Translations under genes and position numbers: made by a program
The notes under the pieces: model-generated
Database searches by the model: none
What the model was told of the DNA's origin: nothing
What the model saw: only the letters and a program-made list of their open reading frames with translations
Virus record (IMG/VR): IMGVR_UViG_3300028654_000034
Coordinates: 1 to 39,695 of that record
Strand: one strand, 5' to 3'
DNA: 39,695 nucleotides
From: a virus
Shown here: positions 2,012 to 25,585 of the stretch, piece after piece
How the letters are laid out: each line of letters starts with the position of its first letter
Numbering within the stretch: the first letter of the stretch is position 1

Positions 2012-2152
2012 ATGAAATTTGTGCAAATCCGCATATACGGACCGTTGGCGCAGAAGCTCAAGGAAAAGGCCAAACAGGAGGACAGGTCGATCTCCAAGAC
2101 CGCGGCCCGGATCCTATTTGCCTCCCTCGCCAATGCACCTGCTCGCAAATAA
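2012..2152 (+). CDS. Ribbon-helix-helix (Arc/MetJ type) small DNA-binding protein
   Basis: This 46-residue protein starts MKFVQIRIYGPLAQKLKEKA and ends in Lys/Arg. The layout is a short beta strand (VQIRIY), helix (PLAQKLKEKAKQED), a turn with SISKTA, then a second helix (ARILFASLA). That is the whole of an Arc/ParD-like ribbon-helix-helix unit, which binds operator DNA as a dimer through the paired strands. The ATG at 2012 is preferred over earlier in-frame starts because those residues are encoded by the promoter region. It overlaps the next gene by 20 bases and is first in the glycan-modification operon. Autoregulation of that operon and of the divergent terminase is therefore a reasonable guess. 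An antitoxin is unlikely because no toxin gene follows. Confidence 0.6.
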   Translation: MKFVQIRIYGPLAQKLKEKAKQEDRSISKTAARILFASLANAPARK

Positions 2153-3179
2153 GTCCACGGTCGACATGGGGTGGTTTGGGCTGCTTACGCCAGGCACCTG
2201 GCTGGTCACCGACCAGAACGCCTGCGAGATCGGGCTGCACTGCACCCGCGGCGACTACCAGATTTCCCCGTTCACCGAGTGGAATCTGTCGGCCAACGTC
2301 GTGACCGCGCTCATTGTTGCCAATGGGGCCAAGGGAGACCTGCTTTTCCTTACCCCGGTGCTGCGCGAACTCCGGAGCCGTCTTCCCGAGATCAAGGTGA
2401 CGCTGGCCTGCTTTCCCATCCACCACTCGATGTTCGACGGGCTAGATCTTTTCGACCGGCTGATCTCCTATCCGGTGCCGTTTGACGAGGTGGAGAAATT
2501 CAGCCGGGTTATCTCGCTGGAGAACGTGATCGAGAACGCCGGCATGACGCACGCGACCGATGCCTTTGCCAGGAAGCTCGAGGTGGACGTGATCACCGAC
2601 TACCGGCCGGCGTACTGTCTGACGCCGTTCGAGCAGGCATGGGCCGAGGCCAGCTATCCGGCCACCGGTCGCCCGCGCGTGGGCCTGCAGATGGCTGCTT
2701 CGGTCAGCAATCGCAATTACCCGCTGGACCACTGGCTCAAGGTCATCAAGGGAATCATCGGCCGGGGCTGGGACGTGTTCGTCTTCGGGCACCCTGGGCA
2801 GTACCCCAAGCTGCAGACCAGTCCTCACCTCCACAACCTGACGCTGGACAAGATCGATTTCCGTAAGGCGGCGGCCGCGCTGTCCACCTGCCAGGCATTC
2901 TGCGGAGTGGATTCGGTGTGGGTCCATATGTGCCACGCGCTCGACATCCCGGCAGTCGGTTTGTACGGACCTTTCCCATGGGAGGCTCGGACGGCGAAGT
3001 CCCCGAAAACATTAGCTCTATCTGGGTTTGGCGAATGCGCTCCGTGTTTCTGGCATATCCACGCCGGCAGGCATTTCCCGCCCAACAAGCCCTGCAGCCA
3101 GAACGGAGTTTGTGTGGTGCTGGCATCCATCGAGCCTGACCGCATCATCTCGAAGATCGACTCCCTGAAGCCAAAATGA
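2133..3179 (+). CDS. Glycosyltransferase family 9 (heptosyltransferase-like)
   Basis: The product has 348 residues and resembles ADP-heptose:lipopolysaccharide heptosyltransferases (GT-B fold). The N-terminal Rossmann domain begins with NGAKGDLLFLTPVLRELR, which matches the family GDxLxxTPxLRxLR signature. The C-terminal nucleotide-sugar domain carries FCGVDSVWVHMCHAL and AVGLYGPFPWEAR, equivalent to the D-S-x-x-x-H-x-A-x-A-L and LFGPT motifs of the family. An N-terminal extension of about 60 residues before the first GT-B strand is unusual. The start is set at ATG 2133; ATG 2166 is an alternative and neither has a clear ribosome site. The stop overlaps the next start as ATGA. It probably acts in the host cytoplasm, either on lipopolysaccharide or on a phage component. 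The sugar and acceptor cannot be told from sequence. Confidence 0.8.
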   Translation: MHLLANKSTVDMGWFGLLTPGTWLVTDQNACEIGLHCTRGDYQISPFTEWNLSANVVTALIVANGAKGDLLFLTPVLRELRSRLPEIKVTLACFPIHHSMFDGLDLFDRLISYPVPFDEVEKFSRVISLENVIENAGMTHATDAFARKLEVDVITDYRPAYCLTPFEQAWAEASYPATGRPRVGLQMAASVSNRNYPLDHWLKVIKGIIGRGWDVFVFGHPGQYPKLQTSPHLHNLTLDKIDFRKAAAALSTCQAFCGVDSVWVHMCHALDIPAVGLYGPFPWEARTAKSPKTLALSGFGECAPCFWHIHAGRHFPPNKPCSQNGVCVVLASIEPDRIISKIDSLKPK

Positions 3180-4672
3180 AACAGGTCACCGTCAGCATCG
3201 CAACCTACGTAGCGCTTCCTTCCGCTCGTCTCTGCCTGAAGGCATTGATGATGCAGAAGGGCGTGGATTTCGATGTGATCCTGACGGCAAACGGATCTCC
3301 TCCGGCCGCAGCCTTCTTCCGCGAGGTCGCAGCGACCTATCCAGATCAGATCAGGTTCGTTGAGAACGAGGAGAACGAGGGGTTCATCGCTCCCAACGTG
3401 AAGGCCCTGTCAATGACGAGCACCCCGTTTTTCCTGATGCTCAACGACGACACGCAGCTACCTCCGAATGGTCTGGAACTTTTACTGAAGCCATTCGCCG
3501 ATGACGAGAAAACCGCTCTGGTCGGGGTCATGGGAGGATGCAGCGAGCTCGACGCAAACTTCGAAGGTAAGTATGGCCCGGCGCTGGAATACGTCGAGGG
3601 AGCGTGCCTGATGTGCCGCACGGACCTGGTGAAGAAGCACGGGCTGTTCGACCCTATGCTGCACTTCGCCTACTGCGAAGATAGTGATTTGTCTCTGCGC
3701 ATGCGGGAATTGGGCTACACGGTTGGCCGGGTCGTTATGGACATCCAGCATAAGCGTGGGGCGACTGCCCGCTACGTTCCCGGCATCTACGACGTGCGGA
3801 TGGCAAACCAGCAGTACTGCGCCAAGAAATGGGCGCTGTATCTCAAGACGCGCAAGTTTGATCCGGCCAACCCGCCGGCTACTTTGCCTGCACCAGCACC
3901 GTCCCCCGTGCCTGTGACGGCGGCCGCTCCGGTTCCAGTGAGCACCAATACCGTTCCACTGACCGTCGTCACTTGCACTGGGGACCGGCCGGAGGCGTTC
4001 GCGCTGGCGGAGCGATGGATGGCGCGGCAGACCGTGCAGCCAATCCAGTGGCTGGTCTTGGACGACGGTAAGGTATCGACCGTCTGCACCCAGGGTCAGG
4101 AATACTACTCCGACGCCAAGTGGCGCGGGAGGAACAGCATGGTGGACAAGATCAAGTTCATCCTGGAGAAGAACCTCGTTACGGGCGACGGCCTGGTCTT
4201 CTGGGAGGATGACGACTGGTACGCTCCAACGTGGCTGGAGTTTGTCTGGAACAGCCTGAAGATCGCCGACATCGTGGGGGAGGGCAGGGCGATCTACTAC
4301 AACGTCAAGTACCGCTGGTGGCATGAGCACGGGAACATGGATCACGCCTCGCTCTGCGAAACCGCTGTCGGCCGCAAATTCTACCCTCGGCTGAAGGAGT
4401 TGTTCAACACCTCGATGGACCCCTTCATCGACAACCGCATCTGGCGGGAGAACCGATTTAAGAAACACCTCGTCGATCCAACCAACCCCAATCGCCGGCT
4501 TTCGGTGGGCATCAAGGCCATGCCCGGGCGGATGGGATACGGGTCGGGCCACAACAAGCCAGAGCGCAGCTCAAAGATGGACCCGTCGCTCATCAAGTTG
4601 CGCGGACTGTTGGGTGATGAAGCCTATGCCTATGCAAATTACGAAGCCCCAAGCCGTGTCCCTCCCAAGTGA
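3176..4672 (+). CDS. Two-domain glycosyltransferase (two GT2-type domains joined by a Pro/Ala linker)
   Basis: The protein has 498 residues. Domain 1 (about 1-230) is a classical GT-A family 2 fold: TVSIATY at the start, LNDDTQL as the metal-binding DxD-type motif, a GACLM segment, and YCEDSDLSLRMRELGY, the acceptor-site ED motif typical of rhamnosyl/galactosyl transferases. A linker at about 233-262 is built of Pro, Ala and Val. Domain 2 (about 263-498) again starts with PLTVVTCTGDRP, then WLVLDDGK and VFWEDDDWYAP as a second DxD-like motif. A tandem GT2 protein suggests two successive transfers onto one glycan. The gene is coupled by ATGA to the GT9 gene. The direction of the whole island opposes the flanking late genes, which supports acquisition as a unit. 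Confidence 0.8.
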   Translation: MKQVTVSIATYVALPSARLCLKALMMQKGVDFDVILTANGSPPAAAFFREVAATYPDQIRFVENEENEGFIAPNVKALSMTSTPFFLMLNDDTQLPPNGLELLLKPFADDEKTALVGVMGGCSELDANFEGKYGPALEYVEGACLMCRTDLVKKHGLFDPMLHFAYCEDSDLSLRMRELGYTVGRVVMDIQHKRGATARYVPGIYDVRMANQQYCAKKWALYLKTRKFDPANPPATLPAPAPSPVPVTAAAPVPVSTNTVPLTVVTCTGDRPEAFALAERWMARQTVQPIQWLVLDDGKVSTVCTQGQEYYSDAKWRGRNSMVDKIKFILEKNLVTGDGLVFWEDDDWYAPTWLEFVWNSLKIADIVGEGRAIYYNVKYRWWHEHGNMDHASLCETAVGRKFYPRLKELFNTSMDPFIDNRIWRENRFKKHLVDPTNPNRRLSVGIKAMPGRMGYGSGHNKPERSSKMDPSLIKLRGLLGDEAYAYANYEAPSRVPPK

Positions 4673-5986: not shown

Positions 5987-8900
5987 CTACCGCATGTCGG
6001 TCATCCGTATTAGGTCCTTGTACCACGAGGGCTGGTTCTGGTAGATCTGGGCTCCGGTGGCGGCACCGGGGACCCCAAGAAGCGATCCGGCCGCTCCGAA
6101 TGCCTTGGCCCTCGTCGCGCGTCGTCCAGAGGGAGTGGCGTTGCGCCCAAACTCGCCTTTATCCATTGCGGCCTGGTAACTCGATTTCAGAGCTTGGATT
6201 GACGTATCAACCACCGGCACCCCGGTCTCTCCGTATTTCGACATGCCGACGATGTTTCCGATGAACGGAATCCTGCGGGAAAGCTCCGTCCCCATCTCCA
6301 TCGGGAGATCGGCCTTCCTCTTCGCGGATGCCTTGGATCCGGTGATCTTTCGATTGACCTCCACGATGAGCGATTCACCGGCAAGCATGGCGACGAAAGC
6401 CAGGGCCATAATCGTCAACTGCTTTATGTTCCCCTCTTTCACCCCCAGATCACCGATGTCGTGTTTCAGGAAACTGGACTGGCGCAGCATCGTGTTCTGA
6501 AACTGGAATAGGGCGTGGGTGTACGACATGTTCTTCCCGGTCAACGTGCCACGGGAAACCGCCTGGGGGAGATCCTTCCGGAGCGGAGAAGTCACGGACA
6601 TGCGGGAAATGACGAGCGCCTTTCGCTGGGCCTCCGTGTCGATCGGGATATTGGGGTAGTTTCTCCAGTCCTTGCCCGCATCGTTCAACTCCTGCAGATA
6701 GCGACCAAGAACGGTTGCCCGGGCATTGACCGTGTCCAGAGCGCGCTCGATGACGAAGGATCCTGCTTGGGCCCGCCGCCAGATGTTTCCGTTGGCCAGT
6801 TCGGCGATCGCGGGCTCACCTCCGAACCGCTGACTGATCTCGGCGAAGTTGCGAGCGATGAATGCGCGACCCTGAGGGGTGAACGCCTCCGCCATACCGC
6901 GGGCAAGGAAATCCGGCCGAACATTCGCCAGGGAAAAGGCGAAATTTGGAAGGTGCTTAAGCTGGGAAATCAGGCGAAGACCGATGACGCCAACCGACGT
7001 GTTTCGGATCATGACATCGAGCAGGCGACTCCGGGTGGCCCCGGCTGGCGCAGCGTCGCGCGCAACCGTGTCCAGCAGATTGAGCACATAGTCCTGCCCG
7101 AGTTTACCGTATCGTTCGGCGAACGCCGGATCCCTGACGATCTCACCCAGCATCTTGGTGTCGCGTTGCGTAGATAGCAGATGGGCGACCCGGCGAATAT
7201 GCCGATCAAGCGAATCGAGCGCGTTGAGCTTCACTCCTCCGCTCGCCTCGGGGATGCGCTCAATGGTCATCCCCTGCTCTGTCTTCGTGGTTCGTCGGGG
7301 GACGAAGTCGGCAGATAGTCCGTTGTTCCACGCGGCCAACTCGTCCAGGCCGGTCTCCCCACCCTTCGAGGCCACTGTCTTCAGGGCCTCTGGGTTGAGC
7401 ACAATCTTGTTCATGTCCTGCTGGAACATCCAGTAATCCTTAACCTCTTTCACGTCGATATTGTAGAGGTCGCGCATCATTTTCTTGATCGCGGGGAAAA
7501 CTGAATCTAGCACCTTGCGGGCGGTATCGTAGAAGAGCTTCTCCTTTGGAGTGATAGTCCGGTTGACGTGATCGATGAGCGCCGGAGAGACTCCGCTGTC
7601 CTGCAGGCGCTCAATCCCGTTTTCCTCCTTGGCGATCGCATAAATACTGATTCTCTCAAGCTCGACATTGTCGTATTTAAATCGGTCCAGGAGGTCTTCG
7701 AATGGCTTGAACAGCGCACGGCGCATGTTCATCTCGCTATTGTAATCGAGGTCGATGCGGCCGCCGACAATTCGGCAAAGCGGACCATCGTAGTAGGCAT
7801 TGCCATCGAGCGTGTCCAGCACCACGTCCCTCACCATGAGGCTTCGACCGACAGACGCGCCCCAGTTCATGGCCGACGCGATCTTGTTGCCGATCTGCAT
7901 TTCGATCCGAGCCGGTAAATTCAGGCGGATGCCCGGAGCAGAGGTCTTGAGTCGATCATTGAGTGCCAAGGCATTTCCGCTGGCCATGTCCTTTACCAAG
8001 GCCTCCTTCTCCCCGTCGTACAGCGCCTGGCGCCCACGGACCATCGTGCGGCCCAGCTTCTCGAGGAGCTTCACGCGATCGAGCAGTGCGCGAAGGACGG
8101 AAGTAGGAAGGTCTACGGCCGGCGTCTTGGCCAGCATGTCGAGTTGCTGGACGATGTCCGAGGGCACCCCGTGGTCTTCGCCCACGCGATCGATGTACTC
8201 CTTGGTCGACTCCAGCCGGCCGATCGTCTTGCCGCTGGGAGCTTCAAGCGAGACCTTGGAAAGTGCCTGCTCGATCTGCTTCTTGTACTCGACGTCCACC
8301 CCACCCGATTTGAGCGCTCGATCCACCGTCTTCTGGATCTCGTCGATGACCCCCTGCTTTTCGACCTCATCGATGCGATTGAGGATTCGAAAGGCAACAG
8401 CCGTCGACCGGCGGAACATCCCCTCTGGTGAATTTCCGATGACCGGCCGGCGCATGGCATCGGTGATCGCCGAGGTGAACGGGCCCTGGTCTTTGGTCGG
8501 GAGCTCTTTCACCAACGCCAAAAGGTCGGTGCGGATCTTGGTCGCCGCCTGCCTTCCGAGTTTGTCTTGGTCAAGCAGGAGCTGGCGTGTGCCTGCCGCG
8601 GCTCCGGCGGCGGCCGCCTGCTGGCCCTGATAGTAGGCGCGCATCTGACGCACGTCACTCGGCCGGCCAAGTCCGGTAGTTCGGGCGATCGCCTGCTTGG
8701 CGGTCTCTGGAGGTGCCGGCGGCTGCCATCCAGCCTCTCGCATTGCTCCGGCCTGCGCAACGGCCCCGGCGGAACCCGCCTGCTGCTGCCCGAGATAGTA
8801 CTGCCGAAGGGCGTCCTGCGTGCTCATCATCCCGTTGATCTGGGAGATGAGGGCGCGGGCCTTGACCCGAAGAGCCGGAGCGTTGTTGCCAGAAATAGGC

Positions 8901-10678
8901 TTGGCGAGCTCCACGGCGGTCGGTTCGGAGACCCCGGTATTTAGATCGATGATCTTCTGGGTATCCAGACGGCCACCTTCGCCGATGAGCGACGAGGCCA
9001 TGCGATGGACGGCGAAAAGCTGCTGGGGATTGAGCCCGGTGTCCGCGGCCATGGTCTTCATCCAAGCTTCCGGGTCAACCTGCCCGGCCTGAATGAGCGC
9101 CGCACCCTTGATCGCGTAGGACGGGAGAAGGACTGGGCCTGCCTCGGATGGGACCGATGAGACGGTCTGCGTGTCTCCAACGGGAACAGGAGCGGATGTT
9201 TTCTCGGGAGCGGCTGCGCGCAACGCCTCGGTATAGAACTGGCCCTTCAGGCCGAGTTCCTGCCCCTGTTTTACGAGCTTGTTGAACTGCTCGTCGCCTG
9301 GATTTTTGTCGAACTCGATTTGTAGCGCGGCTGTCTTCGCCTCAACCCCATCGTGAAGTTCCTTGAGTTTTGCCGCGGCTTCTTCGTTCCCAGCGATAGC
9401 TTCTCCAAACTGGGTGGCTTCTCCTGTGATGGTTGGGACGTTGTCCTCTGGAGCCCAGTGGGCTGCCGCCTCCTCTGGCGTCATCTTGTCGACCGCATCG
9501 AGGACAACAAGCGGATCATCCGTGGTGAACTGCCCCCGGGCATGCTCCAAGTCGCGCACGTTCCAGTTAGGCCCGCTTGGAATGGCATTTGGATCAGCTC
9601 CCAGGTACTGAAAGGTTTTGCTGGCCGGGAGCTTGGCCGACGCAGGGACAACCGGGGTCTCCGCCTTCACCTCGGGAACTGACTCGGGGATCACAGCCGG
9701 AGTGGCAACTGGGGCTGGAGACGGTTCAGCCGCAGGCGCAGGGGCCTCAGGCTGAGGAACTGGCTCCGTACTTTCCGTAATACGCAAATTGGCGTCTTGG
9801 ATTGGGGCAACCTCAGGGCCCGCTTCAGTTACTGGCTTCGCCATCTCAGCCGCCTTGTTCTCATACCACGCCTTAAGGTCATTGGTCGATCCGCCTTCGA
9901 ACCCTTGAGATTTGGCGTAGGTCTCCAGGTACTTGATTTTGCCGGGAGTCGCCAGCCCATGAACAGCCCCCGACAGCGCGGTCACGCCGGCATTGATGAT
10001 CACGTCGTCGATCGACACCGGACGTCCCTGGGCCACGTCGGTGAGCGTGGAGATACCGGCTCCGGCCACGGCGCCGATCCCTGCCTTGACCCCGATGCGA
10101 AGAAAAGGAGATACGATCTGGCCTCCAATCTTCATTGGAAGCATCTGCTGGATGGCGCCCGACGCAGCCCCGATCTGCTCAGCCTGGGCGATCTGCTCCG
10201 GGGTCTTTCCCTCCGCTATTCCGCGCTCCTGCTCGGCCCCGGCTCCTTGGCTTGCTGCGGCTCCGGCCGAGAGCGCCGGGCTCACCGCGGCCAATGGCGC
10301 AATGATCGCCGCGCTTCCCAGGATATTCGCAGCCGTGTTGGCCGCTCCTCCCTGCGGTTGCGCCGGCAACCGAGGAAGCAGCGTGGTCGCACCGTACTTG
10401 ATGACCTGCGCTCGCTCTTCATCCGACAGGCTGCGATGAACGAACTGCTCGGCCTCAGCCACCTTGTCCTCGTCGCTCTGGTTAATCGCCTGGCCCATCA
10501 TGGCCTCAAGCCCGGTTCCGATGTGACGTATGGCGTGCTCGCCAGCCAAGCCCACCTTGCTGAAGAACGTCATCTCCTTTGGCGATTCCAAATCGTCAAG
10601 CGCCGTTGATGGGGCCTGCAGGTCCGAAACCACGTCCTGTGATTTCGGCGGCTCCAGATCGTCTAGGGCCGCGGGCAT
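5987..10678 (-). CDS. Very large internal (ejection) virion protein
   Basis: At 1563 residues this is by far the longest gene, and it is last in the late operon, where short-tailed phages encode the protein ejected into the host envelope. Visible parts are a short N-terminal repeat (LDDLEPPK and LDDLESPK), a long Ala/Gly-rich hydrophobic region at about 105-260, a Pro/Ala/Val linker at about 290-345, a long mixed helical body, and near the C-terminus the stretch QLTIMALAFVAMLAGESLIV, a candidate membrane segment. The C-terminal third resembles, from memory, the large polyvalent internal proteins of podoviruses. No transglycosylase or protease active site could be recognised. The start is ATG 10678 with AAAGGA upstream. 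It probably forms part of the trans-envelope channel; this is inference. Confidence 0.65.
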   Translation of the reverse strand: MPAALDDLEPPKSQDVVSDLQAPSTALDDLESPKEMTFFSKVGLAGEHAIRHIGTGLEAMMGQAINQSDEDKVAEAEQFVHRSLSDEERAQVIKYGATTLLPRLPAQPQGGAANTAANILGSAAIIAPLAAVSPALSAGAAASQGAGAEQERGIAEGKTPEQIAQAEQIGAASGAIQQMLPMKIGGQIVSPFLRIGVKAGIGAVAGAGISTLTDVAQGRPVSIDDVIINAGVTALSGAVHGLATPGKIKYLETYAKSQGFEGGSTNDLKAWYENKAAEMAKPVTEAGPEVAPIQDANLRITESTEPVPQPEAPAPAAEPSPAPVATPAVIPESVPEVKAETPVVPASAKLPASKTFQYLGADPNAIPSGPNWNVRDLEHARGQFTTDDPLVVLDAVDKMTPEEAAAHWAPEDNVPTITGEATQFGEAIAGNEEAAAKLKELHDGVEAKTAALQIEFDKNPGDEQFNKLVKQGQELGLKGQFYTEALRAAAPEKTSAPVPVGDTQTVSSVPSEAGPVLLPSYAIKGAALIQAGQVDPEAWMKTMAADTGLNPQQLFAVHRMASSLIGEGGRLDTQKIIDLNTGVSEPTAVELAKPISGNNAPALRVKARALISQINGMMSTQDALRQYYLGQQQAGSAGAVAQAGAMREAGWQPPAPPETAKQAIARTTGLGRPSDVRQMRAYYQGQQAAAAGAAAGTRQLLLDQDKLGRQAATKIRTDLLALVKELPTKDQGPFTSAITDAMRRPVIGNSPEGMFRRSTAVAFRILNRIDEVEKQGVIDEIQKTVDRALKSGGVDVEYKKQIEQALSKVSLEAPSGKTIGRLESTKEYIDRVGEDHGVPSDIVQQLDMLAKTPAVDLPTSVLRALLDRVKLLEKLGRTMVRGRQALYDGEKEALVKDMASGNALALNDRLKTSAPGIRLNLPARIEMQIGNKIASAMNWGASVGRSLMVRDVVLDTLDGNAYYDGPLCRIVGGRIDLDYNSEMNMRRALFKPFEDLLDRFKYDNVELERISIYAIAKEENGIERLQDSGVSPALIDHVNRTITPKEKLFYDTARKVLDSVFPAIKKMMRDLYNIDVKEVKDYWMFQQDMNKIVLNPEALKTVASKGGETGLDELAAWNNGLSADFVPRRTTKTEQGMTIERIPEASGGVKLNALDSLDRHIRRVAHLLSTQRDTKMLGEIVRDPAFAERYGKLGQDYVLNLLDTVARDAAPAGATRSRLLDVMIRNTSVGVIGLRLISQLKHLPNFAFSLANVRPDFLARGMAEAFTPQGRAFIARNFAEISQRFGGEPAIAELANGNIWRRAQAGSFVIERALDTVNARATVLGRYLQELNDAGKDWRNYPNIPIDTEAQRKALVISRMSVTSPLRKDLPQAVSRGTLTGKNMSYTHALFQFQNTMLRQSSFLKHDIGDLGVKEGNIKQLTIMALAFVAMLAGESLIVEVNRKITGSKASAKRKADLPMEMGTELSRRIPFIGNIVGMSKYGETGVPVVDTSIQALKSSYQAAMDKGEFGRNATPSGRRATRAKAFGAAGSLLGVPGAATGAQIYQNQPSWYKDLIRMTDMR

Positions 10679-12706: not shown

Positions 12707-13489
12707 CTATTGCTTCAGCAACCTGAAATAGTAAATGGTCTTCTGACGCATATCGATCGGAACCTGGCCCGTGTTCGGATCGTCGTACACCAGGTCCGCC
12801 GTGTAATTGGTGGTCGCCTGCCCGCTGACCACCGGGAAGACCGCCGGTTCCTGGTTGCCGTTCTGGTGGTGGCCGTTGAAAAGGTCCCATCCTGACTGGA
12901 GGGGAAGCCGGAAGAGCGGAAGATTGTCGTGGATGAGGTCGATCTGATCATTGCCCGCGGTGTCACCCATGTGCGCCCCGGTCCCCGTGCCGCTGGAAAT
13001 GACGTTCGCCACCACGCAGCCGTCCGAGTCGCTATCGTATTCCCAGCCGGGGTTGTTGGCGAGCGCCGTAGTCAGGTCCGCCGCCTTGACCTCCTTCACG
13101 TCCCCGGGAGACCCCGCGAGGGTTCGCCACTGGCTGCGCTCGTAGATCAGCGTGCAGTTGATCGTCGTATCGAGGAAGAGCATTCCGTTCGACGCCGGAT
13201 TGGGGCGCGCCGCGGTGGCTCCACTTGGCACGGTCATCGGAATCGGGGTCCACGCGGACCCGTTCCACGCGTTCCACGCGATCGGATTGTACGCGTTGTC
13301 CGTCTGGAACCACGGGTAGCCACGCGAATCCTCGTCCGGGGTCGTCGGACCGTAGTTGATCCCGTTGAACGAGTCGAGGCCGACGATCGACTCGTACTGG
13401 GCGAAGAGATTGAGCAGGTCCTGCAGCGATCCCGGGATCTCCGTCCCCTGCGGGGCGGTCAGGGCTTGAAGTGTCGCTGTGAGGCTCAT
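12707..13489 (-). CDS. Tail collar/fibre-like protein
   Basis: The product has 260 residues. The N-terminal 60 residues hold a short helix (LQDLLNLFAQYESIVG). A middle part rich in Trp, Asn, Gly and Pro (NAWNGSAWTPIP) resembles beta structure of fibre proteins. The C-terminus has GNDQIDLIHDNLPLFRLPL and ends PIDMRQKTIYYFRLLKQ. That end pattern, a DNLP-type segment plus a final hydrophobic strand, recalls the tail-collar domain at the tip of many phage fibres. It lies directly downstream of the nozzle gene, a usual place for receptor-binding proteins. The 55-base gap before it (13490-13544) is AT-rich and could hold a weak internal promoter; there is no good ribosome site. The receptor specificity is unknown. 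Confidence 0.55.
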   Translation of the reverse strand: MSLTATLQALTAPQGTEIPGSLQDLLNLFAQYESIVGLDSFNGINYGPTTPDEDSRGYPWFQTDNAYNPIAWNAWNGSAWTPIPMTVPSGATAARPNPASNGMLFLDTTINCTLIYERSQWRTLAGSPGDVKEVKAADLTTALANNPGWEYDSDSDGCVVANVISSGTGTGAHMGDTAGNDQIDLIHDNLPLFRLPLQSGWDLFNGHHQNGNQEPAVFPVVSGQATTNYTADLVYDDPNTGQVPIDMRQKTIYYFRLLKQ

Positions 13490-17536: not shown

Positions 17537-17869
17537 TTACTTCGATCCCTTGGACTTTCCCTCCGGCACAATCGTGAAGAGCGGCGCCGGCCGGCTGTCG
17601 ACCACGGCCATCACCCGGTCCTCCTTCGTGAAGGCCACGTCATTCCCGTCGAGTTTGAGCACCAGCACCTGGGCCACCCCGACCACGGCCCACTGCCCGG
17701 CCTTGATCTGCTTGCACAGGGGGCCCACGGCCACGACCTTTGCCAGGACCGTGGGGGCCTTCTGCATATTTTGCGGCAGGTAGATCGACCCAATCTTCTC
17801 CTGCCCGCCCTCAAGGGTGATCTGGATATTGTCGCCAACCGGCTGGAACTCAGTGGTATTTTCCTTCAT
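17537..17869 (-). CDS. GroES-like co-chaperonin
   Basis: The product has 110 residues from ATG 17869. Line by line it follows the Cpn10 fold: FQPVGDNIQITLEGGQEKIG (compare PLGDRVLVK...), GSIYLPQNMQKAPTVLAKVV containing the IYLP mobile-loop/LP segment, VVAVGPL, IKAGQWAVV, LVLKLDGNDVAFTKEDRVMA, and a C-terminal low-complexity tail. The mobile loop that binds GroEL is the QEKIGSIYLP part. Phage GroES proteins (T4 gp31 is the known case) cap host GroEL so that the capsid protein can fold. Here the gene is first in the late tail operon. The longer frame upstream (to 18016) is rejected because it adds non-family residues. The head genes it might serve lie outside the window. Confidence 0.8.
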   Translation of the reverse strand: MKENTTEFQPVGDNIQITLEGGQEKIGSIYLPQNMQKAPTVLAKVVAVGPLCKQIKAGQWAVVGVAQVLVLKLDGNDVAFTKEDRVMAVVDSRPAPLFTIVPEGKSKGSK

Positions 17870-17907
17870 TGTGCTGACGAGCAAAACTGCCGCCCAGCCC
17901 AAGTCAA

Positions 17908-17922
17908 TATAATCTTGCACCA
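17908..17922 (+). promoter_or_regulatory. Putative promoter -10 with overlapping TTGCACCA operator
   Basis: TATAAT at 17908-17913 is a perfect -10 box, directly followed by TTGCACCA (17915-17922) where the transcript would start. A GTGCA, the reverse of the motif core, follows at 17935-17939. The ATG at 17953 lies about 33 bases downstream of the predicted start. No convincing -35 box is visible, which suggests activation or a phage-specific factor. The region is divergent between the late operon and the small-gene operon. Confidence 0.45.
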
Positions 17923-17952
17923 CGTTAAACCACCGTGCAGCATACTGGCGAC

Positions 17953-18588
17953 ATGATCGCGGCACTTTACGTTGAGACTGGTGGCTGTTATTTCGGACTT
18001 CCAGAAGTCGATCCATGGGACATCACACGGGATGCTAGAAAATATCCGGGGCCGTACCCAATTGTAGCTCACCCCCCTTGCGAACGATGGGGTCGATTTT
18101 CTGAAGGGTCCATGACGCGGAAAACCTACCACACTGGCGAGGATGGTGGATGTTTCGCGTCGGCATTTATAGCTCTGCGCAGATTCGGAGGCGTTTTGGA
18201 ACACCCTGCGCATTCCAAGGCTTGGGAAGTTTTCAATCTACCCCCACCTTTTAGCATTGGTGGCTGGCGTGAAATAGACCGGAGACTGTGGACTTGCGAG
18301 GTGGAACAAGGGCATTATGGACATGTCGCCCGTAAGAAGACCTGGCTGCTGGCTGTTGGTCCAGAACCTCCTGAGCTGATATGGGGACCGTCCCCTCAGC
18401 GGCTTCCTAGCAAACGCCTGCTCGAACGGGGCTACGAGTCCGCTAGGCGTTGTGGGATGGTGGCCAACCAGTGTTCAAAACATCGGCAACGTACCCCAAT
18501 CCCATTCAGGGATCTCCTGCTCTCCATCGCCAGCCAAAAACCGTTATACAGCATATGGCCCAATGAATCCCAAGCTCCGCCAATTTGA
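17953..18588 (+). CDS. Conserved phage protein with an HPPC motif (methyltransferase-like, function unproven)
   Basis: The product has 211 residues from ATG 17953. It starts MIAALYVETGGCYFGLPEVD, continues PWDITRDARKYPGPYPIVAH with HPPCERWGRF at 40-49, and then has GGVLEHPAHSKAW, GHYGHVARKKTWLL and PPELIWG. I recognise this order of motifs as recurring in many phages. The PPC element resembles the catalytic loop of cytosine C5 methyltransferases, and LEHPAHS follows strand order, but no SAM-binding FxGxG loop is visible at the N-terminus. A DNA-modifying or nucleotide-modifying role is only a suggestion. It is the first gene of the small-gene operon, lies under a good promoter, and overlaps the next gene by 26 bases. 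Confidence 0.65.
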   Translation: MIAALYVETGGCYFGLPEVDPWDITRDARKYPGPYPIVAHPPCERWGRFSEGSMTRKTYHTGEDGGCFASAFIALRRFGGVLEHPAHSKAWEVFNLPPPFSIGGWREIDRRLWTCEVEQGHYGHVARKKTWLLAVGPEPPELIWGPSPQRLPSKRLLERGYESARRCGMVANQCSKHRQRTPIPFRDLLLSIASQKPLYSIWPNESQAPPI

Positions 18589-21748: not shown

Positions 21749-22384
21749 TCAGCTTGCGGTCGGAGTCGCAACGACGTCGACCGCTTGCGCAGTTGCCGGT
21801 CCAGTTTGCTGTTCACCTGGCGCGCCTGGCGTCACGTCGCGCGGCATGGGGCGGATCCCGCTCTCTGGCATTACGAATAACGAGAGGTTGACGTTGCCAT
21901 TGCTACCAGCACCTATCGTATCCGCTCTGTCAATACCGCGGCATTTCCGTGATATGTCTGCAAAGTTACGAATGCCGCCGGACCACGATTGAAAATCACG
22001 AGCGGAAAACTTCCCGCGCTTCTTCACACTCTCACGCGCGCGATTCATGCCAGAGAATATCAGTTCTTCGCTTTCAATCGCTACGGCGTTGTAGATTTTC
22101 GCAAGGCTAGCGTCCGCGCGTGTTGATGCCGATTGCGCGCTTTTCATGAGTTTCTGCTGTCGAATAATCGTCCAGCCCTCGCGATGACACAGCTGAGAAA
22201 CTTGGTTTGGGGTGAGCTTAGTCTCCTTGGCAATCTGTTGGCTGGAAAGGAATCGCGTCAAATAGAGGGATTGAACCCTTGCGCGTGTCTCCATGGGAAT
22301 CGTGCCGTTGCCACTACTGCCGATGGAATGGCGTTTTTGACCGGCCAGCGAAATGGCCTTTGCGGGTGTTTTTGTGGCGATCAT
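21749..22384 (-). CDS. terS: Probable terminase small subunit (helix-turn-helix DNA-recognition protein)
   Basis: The product has 211 residues. After a Lys/Ala/Ser-rich N-terminus it has RARVQSLYLTRFLSSQQIAK followed by ETKLTPNQVSQLCHREGW, a helix-turn-helix of the kind used by small terminase subunits (A-x-x-LYLxGxSxxxIAxxTGLxxxxVxxxxxREGW). The central part is a long helical region (ADASLAKIYNAVAIESEELI, ARESVKKRGKFSARDFQSW) suited to oligomerisation. The C-terminus is disordered and Pro/Thr/Ala-rich. Small subunits bind the packaging site and hand DNA to TerL. It lies 20 kb from terL and in a more AT-rich stretch, which is unusual. A generic phage HTH regulator cannot be excluded. Confidence 0.6.
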   Translation of the reverse strand: MIATKTPAKAISLAGQKRHSIGSSGNGTIPMETRARVQSLYLTRFLSSQQIAKETKLTPNQVSQLCHREGWTIIRQQKLMKSAQSASTRADASLAKIYNAVAIESEELIFSGMNRARESVKKRGKFSARDFQSWSGGIRNFADISRKCRGIDRADTIGAGSNGNVNLSLFVMPESGIRPMPRDVTPGAPGEQQTGPATAQAVDVVATPTAS

Positions 22385-22411
22385 ACGTTTGACGGAAGGG
22401 AATCGGACTAG

Positions 22412-22498
22412 GGAAGCTATGTTTGCTTCCGAAGCGGAAGCTGGAAACCAAAGGGGTGAATTGTCGAGCTTATAATCTCAGAGGGAAACTCAGAGGGA
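22412..22498. promoter_or_regulatory. Divergent control region with inverted repeat, -10 box and direct repeats
   Basis: The 231-base gap 22385-22615 separates terS (minus) from the accessory plus-strand genes. It holds GGAAGC/GCTTCC/GGAAGC (22412-22417, 22425-22430, 22436-22441), a TATAAT at 22471-22476, and immediately after it two exact copies of CTCAGAGGGA (22477-22486 and 22489-22498, period 12 bases). A regulator binding both repeats would cover the start of a plus-strand transcript. No good -35 box is visible. Confidence 0.4.
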
Positions 22499-22615
22499 GA
22501 ATTTTGGTAAAAAAGTTGTAAGTAATCGGGTTGATTGCAGATTTGACTCGATTGTGATGCGGAAGTGTCGCAGGGTTGTATTCCGACAGTGAAACATCCG
22601 AATAAAACGAATCCA

Positions 22616-22882
22616 ATGACCTTTACATGCTCTCATATCGATAACGGTTTCTATCGCATTTCCGATAAGGCGGCCGGAGCTTTGGCTAAGCTGAAAGACC
22701 GCAAGCTTCCCCGTCACGGCTATGAGATTCGCGTCGAAGTATCGCCTTGTCTGTCCGCTTGGCTGCAGCGCACACCATTGCGCTATCGCACTGATTCCCC
22801 AGCGCGCGGATGGGTGTGGTCTATCTATCGAGTCGAAGGAATGTCTTACCCCGTCGGCGGACAATTCACAATAACCCTTTGA
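22616..22882 (+). CDS. Accessory protein, unknown
   Basis: The product has 88 residues starting MTFTCSHIDNGFYRISDKAA and holding LKDRKLPRHGYEIRVEVSPC. A mixed alpha/beta small domain is likely. ATG 22616 is preferred because the preceding in-frame residues belong to the control region. There is no Shine-Dalgarno site; the ATG is preceded by CGAATCCA, like several other genes of this island. It is the first gene of the island transcribed away from terS. I recognise no family. Confidence 0.55.
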   Translation: MTFTCSHIDNGFYRISDKAAGALAKLKDRKLPRHGYEIRVEVSPCLSAWLQRTPLRYRTDSPARGWVWSIYRVEGMSYPVGGQFTITL

Positions 22883-22922
22883 CCCTGCGTTGTGCCCATC
22901 CGCGAGGGTGGGCAGACCGCAA

Positions 22923-22946
22923 CGTCAACCCGTCAACCCGTCAAAA
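22923..22946 (+). repeat. Three tandem 8-bp repeats just upstream of a start codon
   Basis: CGTCAACC, CGTCAACC and CGTCAAAA lie head to tail and end three bases before the ATG at 22950. They occupy the place of a ribosome binding site, which is otherwise absent. Three repeats with an 8-base period could bind a protein or be a replication slippage product. Confidence 0.55.
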
Positions 22947-22949
22947 CAA

Positions 22950-23378
22950 ATGACCGCTCAAAATCTGCTTAATCAGTTAAAACGCTCCTCTCCCTCGCTT
23001 GCTTTTTCCGTTTCTCGCGAACGGGATGAGAATTTCTGTTGGGACGGCGATGGTCCAGATCCTATCGACGAAGGGTTTGAGCCCTGCGATGTGACTGTGA
23101 CAGCCAGCTCCATTGTCAAAGGTTCGCTTCGCGAAGGGACGAATTTCCTTGGCGGCTCATACTTCAAACTGGATGAGCCTTGCGATGACGTACACGGTTA
23201 CCTGCCGCAAATGCTCGATGCCGCCCTAGACGACTTGACCCATTCGCTTCCCATAGACGCCCCAGCCGGTCTGTTCCAAGAGATTCTTGCTGCCCATGAG
23301 CTGATTACTTCCGAATTGCGAAAACGCTGGGAAGCGCAGCCAGCGGCCGCTGGCATTGCGCTGCTGAATTCCCTCTGA
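22950..23378 (+). CDS. Acidic accessory protein, unknown
   Basis: The product has 142 residues. It starts MTAQNLLNQLKRSSPSLAFS and has the acidic middle DENFCWDGDGPDPIDEGFEP, then CDVTVTASSIVKGSLREGTN. The C-terminal third is helical (AGLFQEILAAHELITSELRK). Asp/Glu richness suggests a DNA-mimic or a binding partner, but this is only a possibility. There is no Shine-Dalgarno site; the tandem repeats at 22923 stand in its place. No family recognised. Confidence 0.55.
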   Translation: MTAQNLLNQLKRSSPSLAFSVSRERDENFCWDGDGPDPIDEGFEPCDVTVTASSIVKGSLREGTNFLGGSYFKLDEPCDDVHGYLPQMLDAALDDLTHSLPIDAPAGLFQEILAAHELITSELRKRWEAQPAAAGIALLNSL

Positions 23379-23403
23379 ACTAAAACCCTCTTCCCCTTTC
23401 CCC

Positions 23404-24063
23404 ATGTCCACAGTTTCTCTCACCCTTCGAAGCAAGAACACCAAGACGGGGAATATCCCCGTTTCGATGACGGATCCGAATAGCTGTCCCGACAGCTGCC
23501 CTATGAAAGCGAAAGGCTGCTATGCGAAAAGCGGCCCGCTCTCATGGGTGTGGAATAAGATGCGCGGCATGCAATGGGATTCGTTCTGCAGCGCAATCGC
23601 TTCGCTTCCCCTAGGGCAAATTTGGCGCCATAATCAGGCCGGGGATTTGCCGGGGATAGGTGAGCAAATCGATCACCATGCGCTTGGCTCTTTGGTCAAG
23701 GCGAACGTCGGACGGAAGGGATTCACCTATACCCATAAATACGGGACGGAATCCAATCGCGAAGCGATTCGAAGCGCAAATGCCAACGGATTTACCGTCA
23801 ACCTTTCGAGCAATTCGCTGGCGCATGCCGATACCCTTCTGGCCATGAATTGCGGTCCCGTTGTCACCTTGCTTCCCTCTGATGCGAAGCATGGAACGAC
23901 AACGCCAAACGGCGCGCGCGTGGTGGTTTGCCCTAAGGCAACGGGGAAAGCGGCCAGCTGTGACGCATGCCGCTTATGCCAGCATGCGAATCGATCATAC
24001 GTCATCGGATTTCCCGCCCATGGCGCGAGCAAGAAAACCGTCGAAGCAATCGCCAACAGCTAA
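23404..24063 (+). CDS. Conserved phage/plasmid protein with two Cys clusters, unknown function
   Basis: The product has 219 residues. The N-terminus reads STVSLTLRSKNTKTGNIPVS, then DPNSCPDSCPMKAKGCYAKS. The K-T-G-x-I-P-V-S...CPxSCPxxxxGCYA order is one I recognise from unrelated phages and plasmids. A second cluster, CDACRLCQHANRSYVIGF, lies at about 190-207. Conserved parts between them include GIGEQIDHHALGSLVKANVG, FTYTHKY and VNLSSNSLAHADTLLAMNCG. Six to eight conserved Cys make a zinc or iron-sulfur centre probable. The middle resembles an alpha/beta barrel in strand rhythm. The gene is the longest of the island. Its leader is C- and T-rich and lacks a Shine-Dalgarno site. Confidence 0.65.
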   Translation: MSTVSLTLRSKNTKTGNIPVSMTDPNSCPDSCPMKAKGCYAKSGPLSWVWNKMRGMQWDSFCSAIASLPLGQIWRHNQAGDLPGIGEQIDHHALGSLVKANVGRKGFTYTHKYGTESNREAIRSANANGFTVNLSSNSLAHADTLLAMNCGPVVTLLPSDAKHGTTTPNGARVVVCPKATGKAASCDACRLCQHANRSYVIGFPAHGASKKTVEAIANS

Positions 24064-24073
24064 CATTTTTCCA

Positions 24074-24331
24074 ATGCAAACCACCATCAGAACCGTCTCG
24101 CCGTTTCAGCTAAAACTCGCGTCGATTGCCATCGAAGCGATTGCCGCAATGCGCTCAGAGGGAACCGTGGGCGCAAGTGTCGACTGCCTATGGCAAGCGA
24201 TTCACCTGCGTGGCGTCGACTGCCAGTTGAAGGGCGCACCGCGCGGCACGAATTCCGTTTACTACGCCAAAGAGATTTTCGCGGACGTCTGCGAGTCCGT
24301 ACCCTGCATTTGCTCCTTCATTATCGATTAA
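24074..24331 (+). CDS. Small accessory protein, unknown
   Basis: The product has 85 residues starting MQTTIRTVSPFQLKLASIAI. An N-terminal helix (EAIAAMRSEG) precedes a Cys-containing part (VDCLWQAIHLRGVDC) and the C-terminus ADVCESVPCICSFIID. Five Cys are present. The longer frame upstream of ATG 24074 overlaps the preceding gene in a different reading and is rejected. The copy of CTCAGAGGGA inside it (about 24156) repeats a motif of the control region at 22477. Unknown. Confidence 0.5.
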   Translation: MQTTIRTVSPFQLKLASIAIEAIAAMRSEGTVGASVDCLWQAIHLRGVDCQLKGAPRGTNSVYYAKEIFADVCESVPCICSFIID

Positions 24332-24349
24332 CCGCCAGACCTATTCCCC

Positions 24350-24922
24350 ATGATCACGCAAAACAATCAGTCCGTGGTTCCGGCTTACGGTCGGGATTAC
24401 AAGTCAGCTAAGTCAGCCATTGCCGACTTCCTCGCCGGCAAAGATTTTGAGCAACGGTTCTTCCCAGTGCAGGGTGGAACCTACGTTTCCGTCACCGACT
24501 TTGCGCCTGGCGTGCGAGTAAATATCCGCTATTGCCGGCAGACCAGAGTTGCCGTCGCCACCGTGCCGCTGAAACGCTATGACAAGGAGACGCTCAAGCA
24601 GTACTGCGCCGACCATCCGGCCAAACTCGAGGAAGCCGCCCCTCCACATATCGTGGTGGCCGAGCCGGCACCGACCGCACCGACCGCACCGGAGCCTCGC
24701 AGCTGGAAGACCGAGGTTCATATCCCCAATCCAATGCGCGACGAGTGGGCGACCAACGCCTGCCGCTTTGCCACGAAGAAGGAAGCCGAGACGGCCGGTA
24801 TCGAGCTTTTGAGCCGATGGATTGTGCCGGACGATTCGCGCGCGGCGCCGTCCGACGACCCGGTCAACTACAAATTCAACTTCGACACGTACCGCACCGA
24901 ACGAATCGAACCCACGCCATGA
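24350..24922 (+). CDS. Two-domain phage accessory protein, unknown
   Basis: The product has 190 residues. The first part has VVPAYGRDYKSAKSAIADFL and GTYVSVTDFAPGVRVNIRYC, a small-domain layout known to me from many phages (PAYGRDYKS...G-K-D-F...V-N-I-R-Y). A linker built of Pro, Ala, Thr and Glu follows at about 105-120. The second part, EVHIPNPMRDEWATNACRFA and GIELLSRWIVPDDSRAAPSD ending in a V-N-Y segment, is another recurring phage module. The fusion of the two modules is uncommon. The stop overlaps the next ATG. The leader is C-rich without a ribosome site. No biochemical role is known to me. Confidence 0.6.
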   Translation: MITQNNQSVVPAYGRDYKSAKSAIADFLAGKDFEQRFFPVQGGTYVSVTDFAPGVRVNIRYCRQTRVAVATVPLKRYDKETLKQYCADHPAKLEEAAPPHIVVAEPAPTAPTAPEPRSWKTEVHIPNPMRDEWATNACRFATKKEAETAGIELLSRWIVPDDSRAAPSDDPVNYKFNFDTYRTERIEPTP

Positions 24923-25023
24923 TCTTCGCCCTTGAAATCCTTGCCAGCTTCGTGGCCTACGTGCTTTTCTGCGCGTTCCTCGGCTGGCTCATCTTCACCG
25001 TCGACAACGACGAAGAGCAGTAA
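24919..25023 (+). CDS. Single-span membrane peptide
   Basis: The 34-residue peptide begins MIFALEILASFVAYVLFCAF, continues hydrophobic through FLGWLIFTV and ends with acidic residues (DNDEEQ). One transmembrane helix fills almost the whole length, with the acidic end likely outside or at the interface. The start overlaps the preceding TGA (ATGA). A very small phage membrane protein; unknown. Confidence 0.5.
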   Translation: MIFALEILASFVAYVLFCAFLGWLIFTVDNDEEQ

Positions 25024-25126
25024 CCCTTTCACGGTTTCCGGTTCCCGCCCTGGCGGAAAGGACCGGCAAGAGCAGGCCATCTTCGGACTGGACCGTGATC
25101 CTTTCGACTCCCAAACCAAAAATCCA

Positions 25127-25357
25127 ATGATCATCAAACCCGTGAAACTGATCCCGCGCACCGTGCGCATGTCCCCCGAAGACTGGCAACGCTGCCTGTG
25201 CGCCATGGCCAACGACGCCAAACAGTACCGCTCAATGCAGGAGTGGCTGCTCGAGGCTGTCATTGAGAAGGCACAGCGCCAGGAGCTCGCCTATTTGACC
25301 GCCGGCCTTACCGCCGGCAATGCCAATGAAACCTCCCCGACAGCCCCCGCCCAGTAA
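25127..25357 (+). CDS. Ribbon-helix-helix-like small protein
   Basis: The product has 76 residues. KPVKLIPRTVRMSPEDWQRC has a strand (PRTVRM) followed by a helix beginning at SPEDW; then MQEWLLEAVIEKAQRQELAY is a second helix, in the strand-helix-helix order of the Arc/CopG fold. The tail is Thr/Ala/Pro-rich. A DNA-binding regulator of the accessory genes is the best guess. The upstream gap 25024-25126 contains an imperfect GC-rich hairpin at about 25035-25064 (CCGGT and ACCGG arms). The ATG follows AAATCCA and lacks a ribosome site, like others of this group. It overlaps the next gene by 32 bases. Confidence 0.5.
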   Translation: MIIKPVKLIPRTVRMSPEDWQRCLCAMANDAKQYRSMQEWLLEAVIEKAQRQELAYLTAGLTAGNANETSPTAPAQ

Positions 25358-25439
25358 CCGATGGTGGCTGGTTCAGTGCCTGATCCTGGGTGCTGCGATC
25401 GGCGCCATGTTCTGGGTGTTCCCCTGCCTGCATCCATGA
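25326..25439 (+). CDS. Tiny membrane peptide
   Basis: The 37-residue peptide starts MKPPRQPPPSNRWWLVQCLI and continues with a hydrophobic run (LGAAIGAMFWVF) to CLHP. A short basic, Pro-rich N-terminus and one membrane span fit an N-in topology. It overlaps both neighbours (32 bases upstream, ATGA downstream), which is why it was considered. Lower certainty because of length. Confidence 0.4.
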   Translation: MKPPRQPPPSNRWWLVQCLILGAAIGAMFWVFPCLHP

Positions 25440-25585
25440 CGACCTTCTTCGCCATCGCCAAGTACGCCTTCCTAGTCGGCGCCTGCTGGGCCCTGTTCCA
25501 CACGCCGCAGCATGACTGGCTATTCGGTGGGCTCTTCGCGCTGTTCCTGTTCGCGTCGGTTTTCCGGCCGATCAAGAACGGATAA
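25436..25585 (+). CDS. Small membrane protein with two spans
   Basis: The 49-residue protein has TTFFAIAKYAFLVGACWALF and LFGGLFALFLFASVF as two hydrophobic segments, with HTPQHDW as the loop and RPIKNG as the basic end. It is coupled to the preceding peptide by ATGA and followed 22 bases later by a strong terminator, so it ends the accessory operon. A holin-like shape without further evidence. Confidence 0.5.
   Translation: MTTFFAIAKYAFLVGACWALFHTPQHDWLFGGLFALFLFASVFRPIKNG

Follow-up and report, generated by a model that had tools for sequence, protein, structure and literature searches.

What does the cysteine-rich protein encoded at 23404..24063 on the + strand of this viral DNA do? The window, by which we mean the whole stretch analysed, is an IMG/VR virus record of 39,695 bases, and the initial annotation had read the protein as an Fe-S or zinc enzyme. 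This idea is partly supported by the results below, from which we conclude with moderate confidence that the protein is a small, non-canonical radical-SAM-type phage enzyme that still uses S-adenosylmethionine (SAM).

The DUF7227 family and its invariant cysteines

The gene proposed at this place was confirmed as an open reading frame (ORF) on the + strand that starts with ATG and encodes 219 amino acids. Its product matched the Pfam family DUF7227 (PF23872) over residues 4–217 with an E-value of 9.1e-84 and a score of 280.9 bits, above the gathering cut-off of 27, and is a full-length member of the family; a match of this strength indicates that 23404..24063 is no chance reading frame. The protein also matched phrog_2554 (E 9.9e-44), of which PF23872 forms a part. 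It carries the motifs KTGNIPVS (residues 14–21), CPDSCPMKAKGC (residues 28–39) and CDACRLC (residues 186–192).

Relatives were found in 185 of 50,697 phage records, 166 of these 185 being named Pseudomonas, and in 2 of 72,556 plasmid records, which bears out the earlier remark that the pattern recurs in unrelated phages and plasmids. In IMG/VR, DUF7227 was confirmed in at least 509 of 599 stretches and the family GP88 (PF17338), to which we return below, in at least 589; members of the two families occur in Pseudomonas, cyanobacterial, SAR11 and mycobacterial phages. GTDB contigs yielded 28 DUF7227 loci, nine of them from Variovorax (L102, L105–L110, L113 and L123; two in one strain), and, in a sample of 299 genomes from one phylum, the family was present in 2, one of them the centre of the sample. 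On a Variovorax plasmid (L013), the DUF7227 gene adjoins YqaJ and DUF932 genes. The relative in Prochlorococcus phage P-RSP2 looks broken: its 128-aa ORF (L012:2857-3243) holds the N-terminal cysteines only, and the similarity goes on in a second piece. A gene of the Tunturiibacter phage Tunturi_2 (L007:4959-5693) is annotated as a DNA methyltransferase, yet matches both DUF7227 and GP88; the name is probably wrong.

The statement that no function is established holds for DUF7227, whose name, like that of DUF5131, was absent from the literature searched, a corpus without subscription journals and preprints. The accessions PF17338, PF23872, PF07505, TIGR04471 and TIGR04474 were likewise absent from this corpus, in which COG4422 occurs in two papers.

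The proposal of a metal enzyme had been staked on conservation of the cysteines in homologues, and a family-wide alignment showed that they are conserved. All seven cysteines of the protein (28, 32, 39, 176, 186, 189 and 192) are invariant in 66 of 66 alignment rows, the window included, and are kept in 120 of 120 relatives of a wider set that left aside a copy of the window (L001), two truncated ORFs (L012 and L124) and one sequence with Ns at the motif (L103). Besides the cysteines, the residues Y40, W50, W74, R75, G80, D81, L82, H111, N133, S135 and P152 are invariant in the 66 aligned proteins.

The predicted fold and its link to radical-SAM enzymes

An AlphaFold2 model of the protein, built from 66 sequences (pLDDT 96.4, pTM 0.92), contains strands at residues 20–22, 73–79, 105–110, 131–136, 153–157, 172–175 and 200–204, with helices between most of them. 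A cysteine loop and two helices follow strand 20–22, and the second cysteine cluster follows strand 172–175. The protein is thus predicted to be an alpha/beta half-barrel with the first cysteine triplet after strand 1, and the alpha/beta domain anticipated earlier is borne out by the model. The two clusters that had been described at either end of this domain are present, but their simple end placement does not hold: the first follows strand 1, and the second lies between strands 172–175 and 200–204.

The initial annotation had suggested a comparison with radical-SAM and barrel folds. In VIA-align, the first seven matches of the model were radical-SAM enzymes, led by QueE (Z 6.4, rmsd 4.8, 164 residues) and including viperin (Z 6.1, rmsd 4.2, 159 residues), and such enzymes, as read from their titles, made up 16 of the 50 matches shown. 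Radical-SAM enzymes therefore came first, but with weak scores: the topology of a half-barrel with a cysteine loop after strand 1 agrees, at Z values of 6.4 and under, and the best barrel outside the superfamily, CutC, scored 5.5, less than 1 below the top. By themselves, these predicted-structure matches are suggestive, not decisive. Because other barrels come within 1 Z unit of these matches, we rejected a specific function like that of QueE or viperin. Foldseek gave no match of the model in the PDB at E<=0.001, and sequence searches of the PDB, whether by the window protein or by the DUF7227, GP88 and DUF5131 profiles, returned nothing credible at E-values up to 10. Foldseek comparison with the viral predicted structures of BFVD paired the model, at probability 1.00 in each case, with a GP88 protein at E 9.5e-4 and with a Gp37/Gp68-like protein at E 1.5e-3. 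Residues 15 and 19 of anSMEcpe, which we take to be two of its three cluster cysteines, would correspond to C28 and C32 if the alignments run gap-free from their first aligned residues (16 to 3, 17 to 4).

The firmer link to radical-SAM enzymes is a chain of homology through two other phage families. Three DUF7227 members (L007, 35.9 bits; L116, 30.9; L119, 26.1) passed the GP88 gathering cut-off of 24.4 bits with matches spanning nearly the whole profile; seven other members scanned alongside had no GP88 match at E<=0.1, and the window protein scored 12.1 bits, below the cut-off. Matches to GP88 at E<=10 were obtained for 18 of the 66 aligned members (best, 3.4e-8). Profile comparisons between the two families were collinear from the cysteine loop to the C-terminus, with E-values of 1.1e-5 and 1.8e-5, and a larger DUF7227 alignment reached only 0.018 against the GP88 profile. 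The Pfam GP88 model in turn passed its own cut-off on two proteins at DUF5131 places. DUF5131 proteins matched TIGR04471, 'radical SAM mobile pair protein A', with E-values of 5.1e-28 and 1.6e-27 (98.1 and 96.5 bits, below the equivalog cut-off of 355). A DUF5131 model (pLDDT 93.4) has the same strand and helix order as the DUF7227 model and matched spore photoproduct lyase both in Foldseek (E 5.2e-4) and in VIA-align (Z 13.9, rmsd 3.0, 199 residues), where matches 1 to 47 were radical-SAM enzymes, judged by title or general knowledge.

The chain DUF7227–GP88–DUF5131–TIGR04471, together with the DUF5131 fold, connects the family by homology with radical-SAM enzymes, whereas the direct comparison of the DUF7227 and DUF5131 profiles was not significant (E 0.14), nor was that of GP88 with DUF5131 (E 0.26). 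HMMs built from our own narrower sets did not detect one another (best real cross-family E-values 0.79 to 46, none under 1e-3; best shuffled or reversed decoys 5.4 to 84), so the chain depends on the broader GP88 model of Pfam together with NCBIfam and structural evidence. The window protein did not match the Pfam Radical_SAM model at E<=1, and this model was absent from the 20 Pfam families listed for the 66 DUF7227 members at E<=10. The chain points to DUF7227 being a radical-SAM-type enzyme. It also argues against a zinc-binding barrel that would resemble radical-SAM enzymes in the common barrel arrangement only. The weak PDB matches of the window model and the CX2CX2C motif, which occurs in zinc proteins too, would fit such a barrel, and we nevertheless hold it to be highly improbable in view of the sequence path from GP88 through DUF5131 to radical SAM.

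The three families share three cysteines in the same loop at different spacings: CX3CX6C in the DUF7227 protein of the window, CX6CX3C in GP88 (triplet kept in 79 of 79 rows) and CX6CX2C in DUF5131 ('phage Gp37/Gp68', PF07505; kept in at least 79 of 80 rows). GP88 proteins resemble DUF7227 in size and, through the three members above, are homologous to it over nearly the whole profile; stretches of the type R-x-N-x-x-[GS]-D, [YD]-x-T-[HK] and S-x-[EN] align between the two. DUF5131 resembles DUF7227 in the strand and helix order of the models and in a cysteine triplet ending in CYA, and is often found beside TcmP genes. All three are basic, with median isoelectric points of 9.3 for DUF7227 (n = 122), 9.7 for GP88 (n = 80) and 8.9 for DUF5131 (n = 80). 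The C-terminal four-cysteine cluster is present in DUF7227 only, GP88 having three conserved cysteines and DUF5131 likewise lacking the cluster.

The DUF7227 model agrees in topology, at the weak scores given above, with the half-barrel and the cysteine loop after strand 1 of the radical-SAM superfamily (spore photoproduct lyase, QueE, viperin), and the family differs from it in cysteine spacing, in GD for GGE, in its small size and in its own kind of second cluster. Instead of the canonical CX3CX2C, the window protein has CX3CX6C (Cys28–Cys39; codons 23485..23520), and some members have longer last gaps; other radical-SAM families with odd cysteine spacing exist. We propose that these three cysteines hold a [4Fe-4S] cluster, which would bind SAM and cleave it reductively. 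The radical-SAM GGE(P) motif after strand 2 is replaced by AGDL, and GGE would correspond to GD or SD across DUF7227, GP88 and DUF5131. The stretch RHNQAGDL at the end of strand 2 (R75–L82; 23626..23649), in which R75, G80, D81 and L82 are invariant in 66 of 66 proteins, is the putative counterpart of GGE. On strand 4, N133, L134 and S135 (23800..23808), the first and last of them invariant, may contact the SAM ribose, and the invariant GD and these strand-4 residues would line the SAM site. Cys176, which stands outside CDACRLC, also belongs to the second cluster (Cys176–Cys192, CX9CX2CX2C; 23929..23979), invariant in 66 of 66 and 120 of 120 proteins; we propose that its four cysteines hold either an auxiliary Fe-S cluster or Zn, in a second metal site that would lie near the substrate. 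The active-face loops of the barrel hold 10 of the 18 invariant residues (p 0.04), or 6 of 11 without the cysteines (p 0.12), and their mean conservation is 0.51 against 0.57 for the opposite loops; conservation is not clearly concentrated at this face.

The departures from the canonical motifs raise the alternative of a degenerate relative that has kept the barrel and the metal sites but lost SAM cleavage, and that acts early by binding a host protein, as inhibitor or decoy, its metals serving as structural staples. The non-canonical spacing, the loss of GGE and the length of 219 aa would all suit such a binder. Yet the seven cysteines, R75, D81, H111, N133 and S135 are invariant beyond the needs of a scaffold, and the equivalent triplet is kept in nearly every GP88 and DUF5131 row given above; we therefore consider a degenerate binder rather unlikely.

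Exchange of DUF7227 and GP88 at one locus

GP88 loci and one group of DUF7227 loci have neighbours in common, and in some viruses the two families share a genomic slot. Comparison of 123 DUF7227 with 80 GP88 loci gave 256 pairs (20 and 13 loci) similar on both flanks, and in the 12 both-flank pairs printed blastn found no match inside the gene. The left flanks of L040 (DUF7227) and L291 (GP88) are 93.2% identical over 2,889 columns, the match ending 21 and 7 positions upstream of the start codons, and similarity resumes 15 positions after both stop codons (95.9% over 711 bases), while blastp found no significant match between the two proteins (best E 0.078). This pair shows an exchange that is exact to the ORF. 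For L042 and L288, the right flanks are 99.93% identical over 2,980 bases and the left similarity (92.8% over 2,182) breaks off 717 and 538 positions short of the genes, so that the seam is not gene-exact there.

We then sampled the slot through its neighbours. Among 80 loci fetched by a 77-aa cysteine-rich downstream gene (the best 80 of 555 relatives of a query from a DUF7227 locus), 43 carried GP88, 37 carried DUF7227, and none had both or neither. Among 80 fetched by a small-terminase-like upstream gene (the best 80 of 187), 67 could be assessed: GP88 was present in 29 and DUF7227 in 17, none had both, 21 had neither, and the other 13 were too short. The 21 loci with neither form show that the slot gene does not occur throughout the lineage. 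In this upstream-fetched sample, the 77-aa gene accompanied 38 of 46 loci with a slot gene, none of the 21 without one and none of the 13 short loci (38/46 versus 0/21, Fisher p 3e-11). The gene (L053:1997-2227; the same gene in L411–L486) lies immediately downstream of the DUF7227/GP88 slot in one lineage, and 10 cysteine columns of its product are conserved in 80 of 80 proteins, the best 80 of 555 relatives. The 77-aa protein may be a partner of the slot enzyme.

Slot type changed at least 18 times over 77 rows on a tree of the downstream flank (200 shuffles: mean 23.8, range 17–29) and 11 times among 46 rows on a tree of the terminase-like gene (shuffle mean 13.0, 9–17). Counts so near those of the shuffles indicate that slot type is nearly unlinked from its flanks, within samples and quick trees that come from short sequences, contain related rows and contigs recurring between samples or metagenomes, and are blurred by recombination. 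The clean whole-gene exchange suggests that DUF7227 and GP88 do the same job; they would be alternative forms of one tool, one whole gene being substituted for the other at a shared locus in some viruses. No relative of the 162-aa ORF upstream of the window gene (22890..23378, +) was found in IMG/VR, so the exchange is known from one viral lineage and not from the window's own.

The exchange with GP88 is the surprising part of the finding. As a natural experiment in which close viruses differ in one enzyme, it offers a direct approach to early phage genes of unknown function, and placing both families on a radical-SAM-type scaffold, in one case with a putative second metal site, would make testable enzymes of two families without known function. 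By analogy with alternative types of DNA modification, the either/or locus might hold two radical-SAM-type enzymes that mark the same kind of target differently, allowing escape from type-specific host defences; the target could be phage DNA, host RNA or a defence component, and the small cysteine-rich protein commonly follows. We offer this combined picture as speculation with a low chance of being right; if true, these would be radical-SAM enzymes of a new class, devoted to counter-defence or host takeover.

Genomic context and possible role

The window gene lies in a + strand cluster (22565-25585) beside a divergent − strand block, and is the largest ORF taken as a gene in this cluster, in agreement with its earlier description as the largest gene of the island. 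The 162-aa upstream ORF, in the same cluster, belongs to no known family. Downstream are an 85-aa ORF (24074..24331, +) with no PHROG match and a 190-aa ORF (24350..24922, +), whose relatives adjoin DUF7227 in two searched loci (downstream in L091, upstream in L069). A divergent 211-aa ORF (21749..22384, −) has no Pfam or PHROG match and, by its position, would resemble the small-terminase-like gene of the either/or lineage. Among the other proteins encoded by the window are a DnaB-like helicase and one resembling exonuclease VIII. Informative family matches around the gene were limited to the helicase and a primosomal protein at greater distance, and window 22200-24600 showed no promoter-like site.

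In several T7-like phages, DUF7227 or GP88 is placed among the first genes, the place occupied in T7 by early host-takeover genes. In P-SSP7, CRP-345, S-SRP01 and Himinglaeva, the gene lies near the record start or behind DNA maturase B, ahead of the integrase. GP88 starts within the first 2 kb in HTVC024P, HTVC035P, HTVC115P, HTVC134P, HTVC309P, HTVC120P, HMO-2011 and Lo5R7ANS, and in CRP-6 and CRP-235 it reads inward within 2 kb of the right end. This genome-end position is not universal (exceptions are HTVC023P, TRX32-1, XacN1 and Pseudomonas phages), and its comparison is blurred by circular or permuted records. All early genes of one pelagiphage are of unknown function according to PMC12753301, in the consulted sections of which we found neither early-expression data for DUF7227 nor the name of the family.

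We scanned 90 of the 124 listed nearest same-strand ORFs. The named Pfam families among the 90 were integrase (3), DUF932 (3), ArdC N-domain (2), metallopeptidase (2), H-NS (2) and others (1–2 each), and no recurrent pathway partner appeared; the neighbour clusters within 4 kb at 8 and 6 loci were identified as DUF932 by one member each. These results bear on a metabolic alternative, a radical-SAM enzyme in nucleotide or cofactor metabolism, QueE- or viperin-like in kind, that supplies phage replication. The leading VIA-align matches and the transaldolase and thymidylate synthase genes near DUF7227 in P-SSP2 and S-SRP01 would fit it, but the QueE and viperin matches lie within 1 Z of unrelated barrels, the scanned neighbours hold no recurrent partner, and exchange with GP88 better suits a diversifying gene. 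We regard such a metabolic enzyme as unlikely.

Around DUF5131, two neighbour clusters at 27 and 7 of 80 viral loci were identified by one member each as TcmP ('three-Cys-motif partner protein'), with adjoining genes at L199:2246-3106 and L177:2290-3576; no TcmP-like gene was found beside DUF7227 or GP88. In one genome, a gene for a DndC-like PP-loop protein (L146:2622-3965, −) adjoins the DUF5131 gene, a neighbour that hints at nucleic-acid modification. DndC is treated in PMC10853773.

The seven invariant cysteines, the model, the homology chain, the either/or slot, the early placement and the basic isoelectric point argue for DUF7227 as a radical-SAM-type enzyme, against which stand the non-canonical cysteine spacing and GGE region, the weak PDB matches, the null profile comparisons, the TIGR04471 scores below equivalog level and the lack of a clear concentration of conserved residues at the active face. 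Gene-for-gene exchange and early placement would also fit the host-facing binder discussed above. For the radical-SAM-type enzyme, we infer that the likeliest role is that of an early enzyme acting on nucleic acid, a nucleotide or a defence component. The protein would be made early in infection and would modify a single target, for which a nucleic acid or nucleotide is the likeliest candidate, in the service of host takeover or counter-defence. Taken alone, a nucleic-acid or counter-defence role is a tentative assignment.

Other parts of the window hold two glycosyltransferases, of families 9 and 2 (2019-4672, +), a 1,563-aa ORF with no Pfam match at E<=0.01 (5987-10678, −) and an ORF with a weak match to the phage co-chaperonin GroES family phrog_3188 (17537-18016, −; E 8.8e-6). 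A Shine-Dalgarno-like stretch was present in only 6 of the 24 window genes checked, and several start codons are preceded by a run of C (CCCATG) instead; places concerned include 23398-23406, 24344-24352 and 12707-13489.
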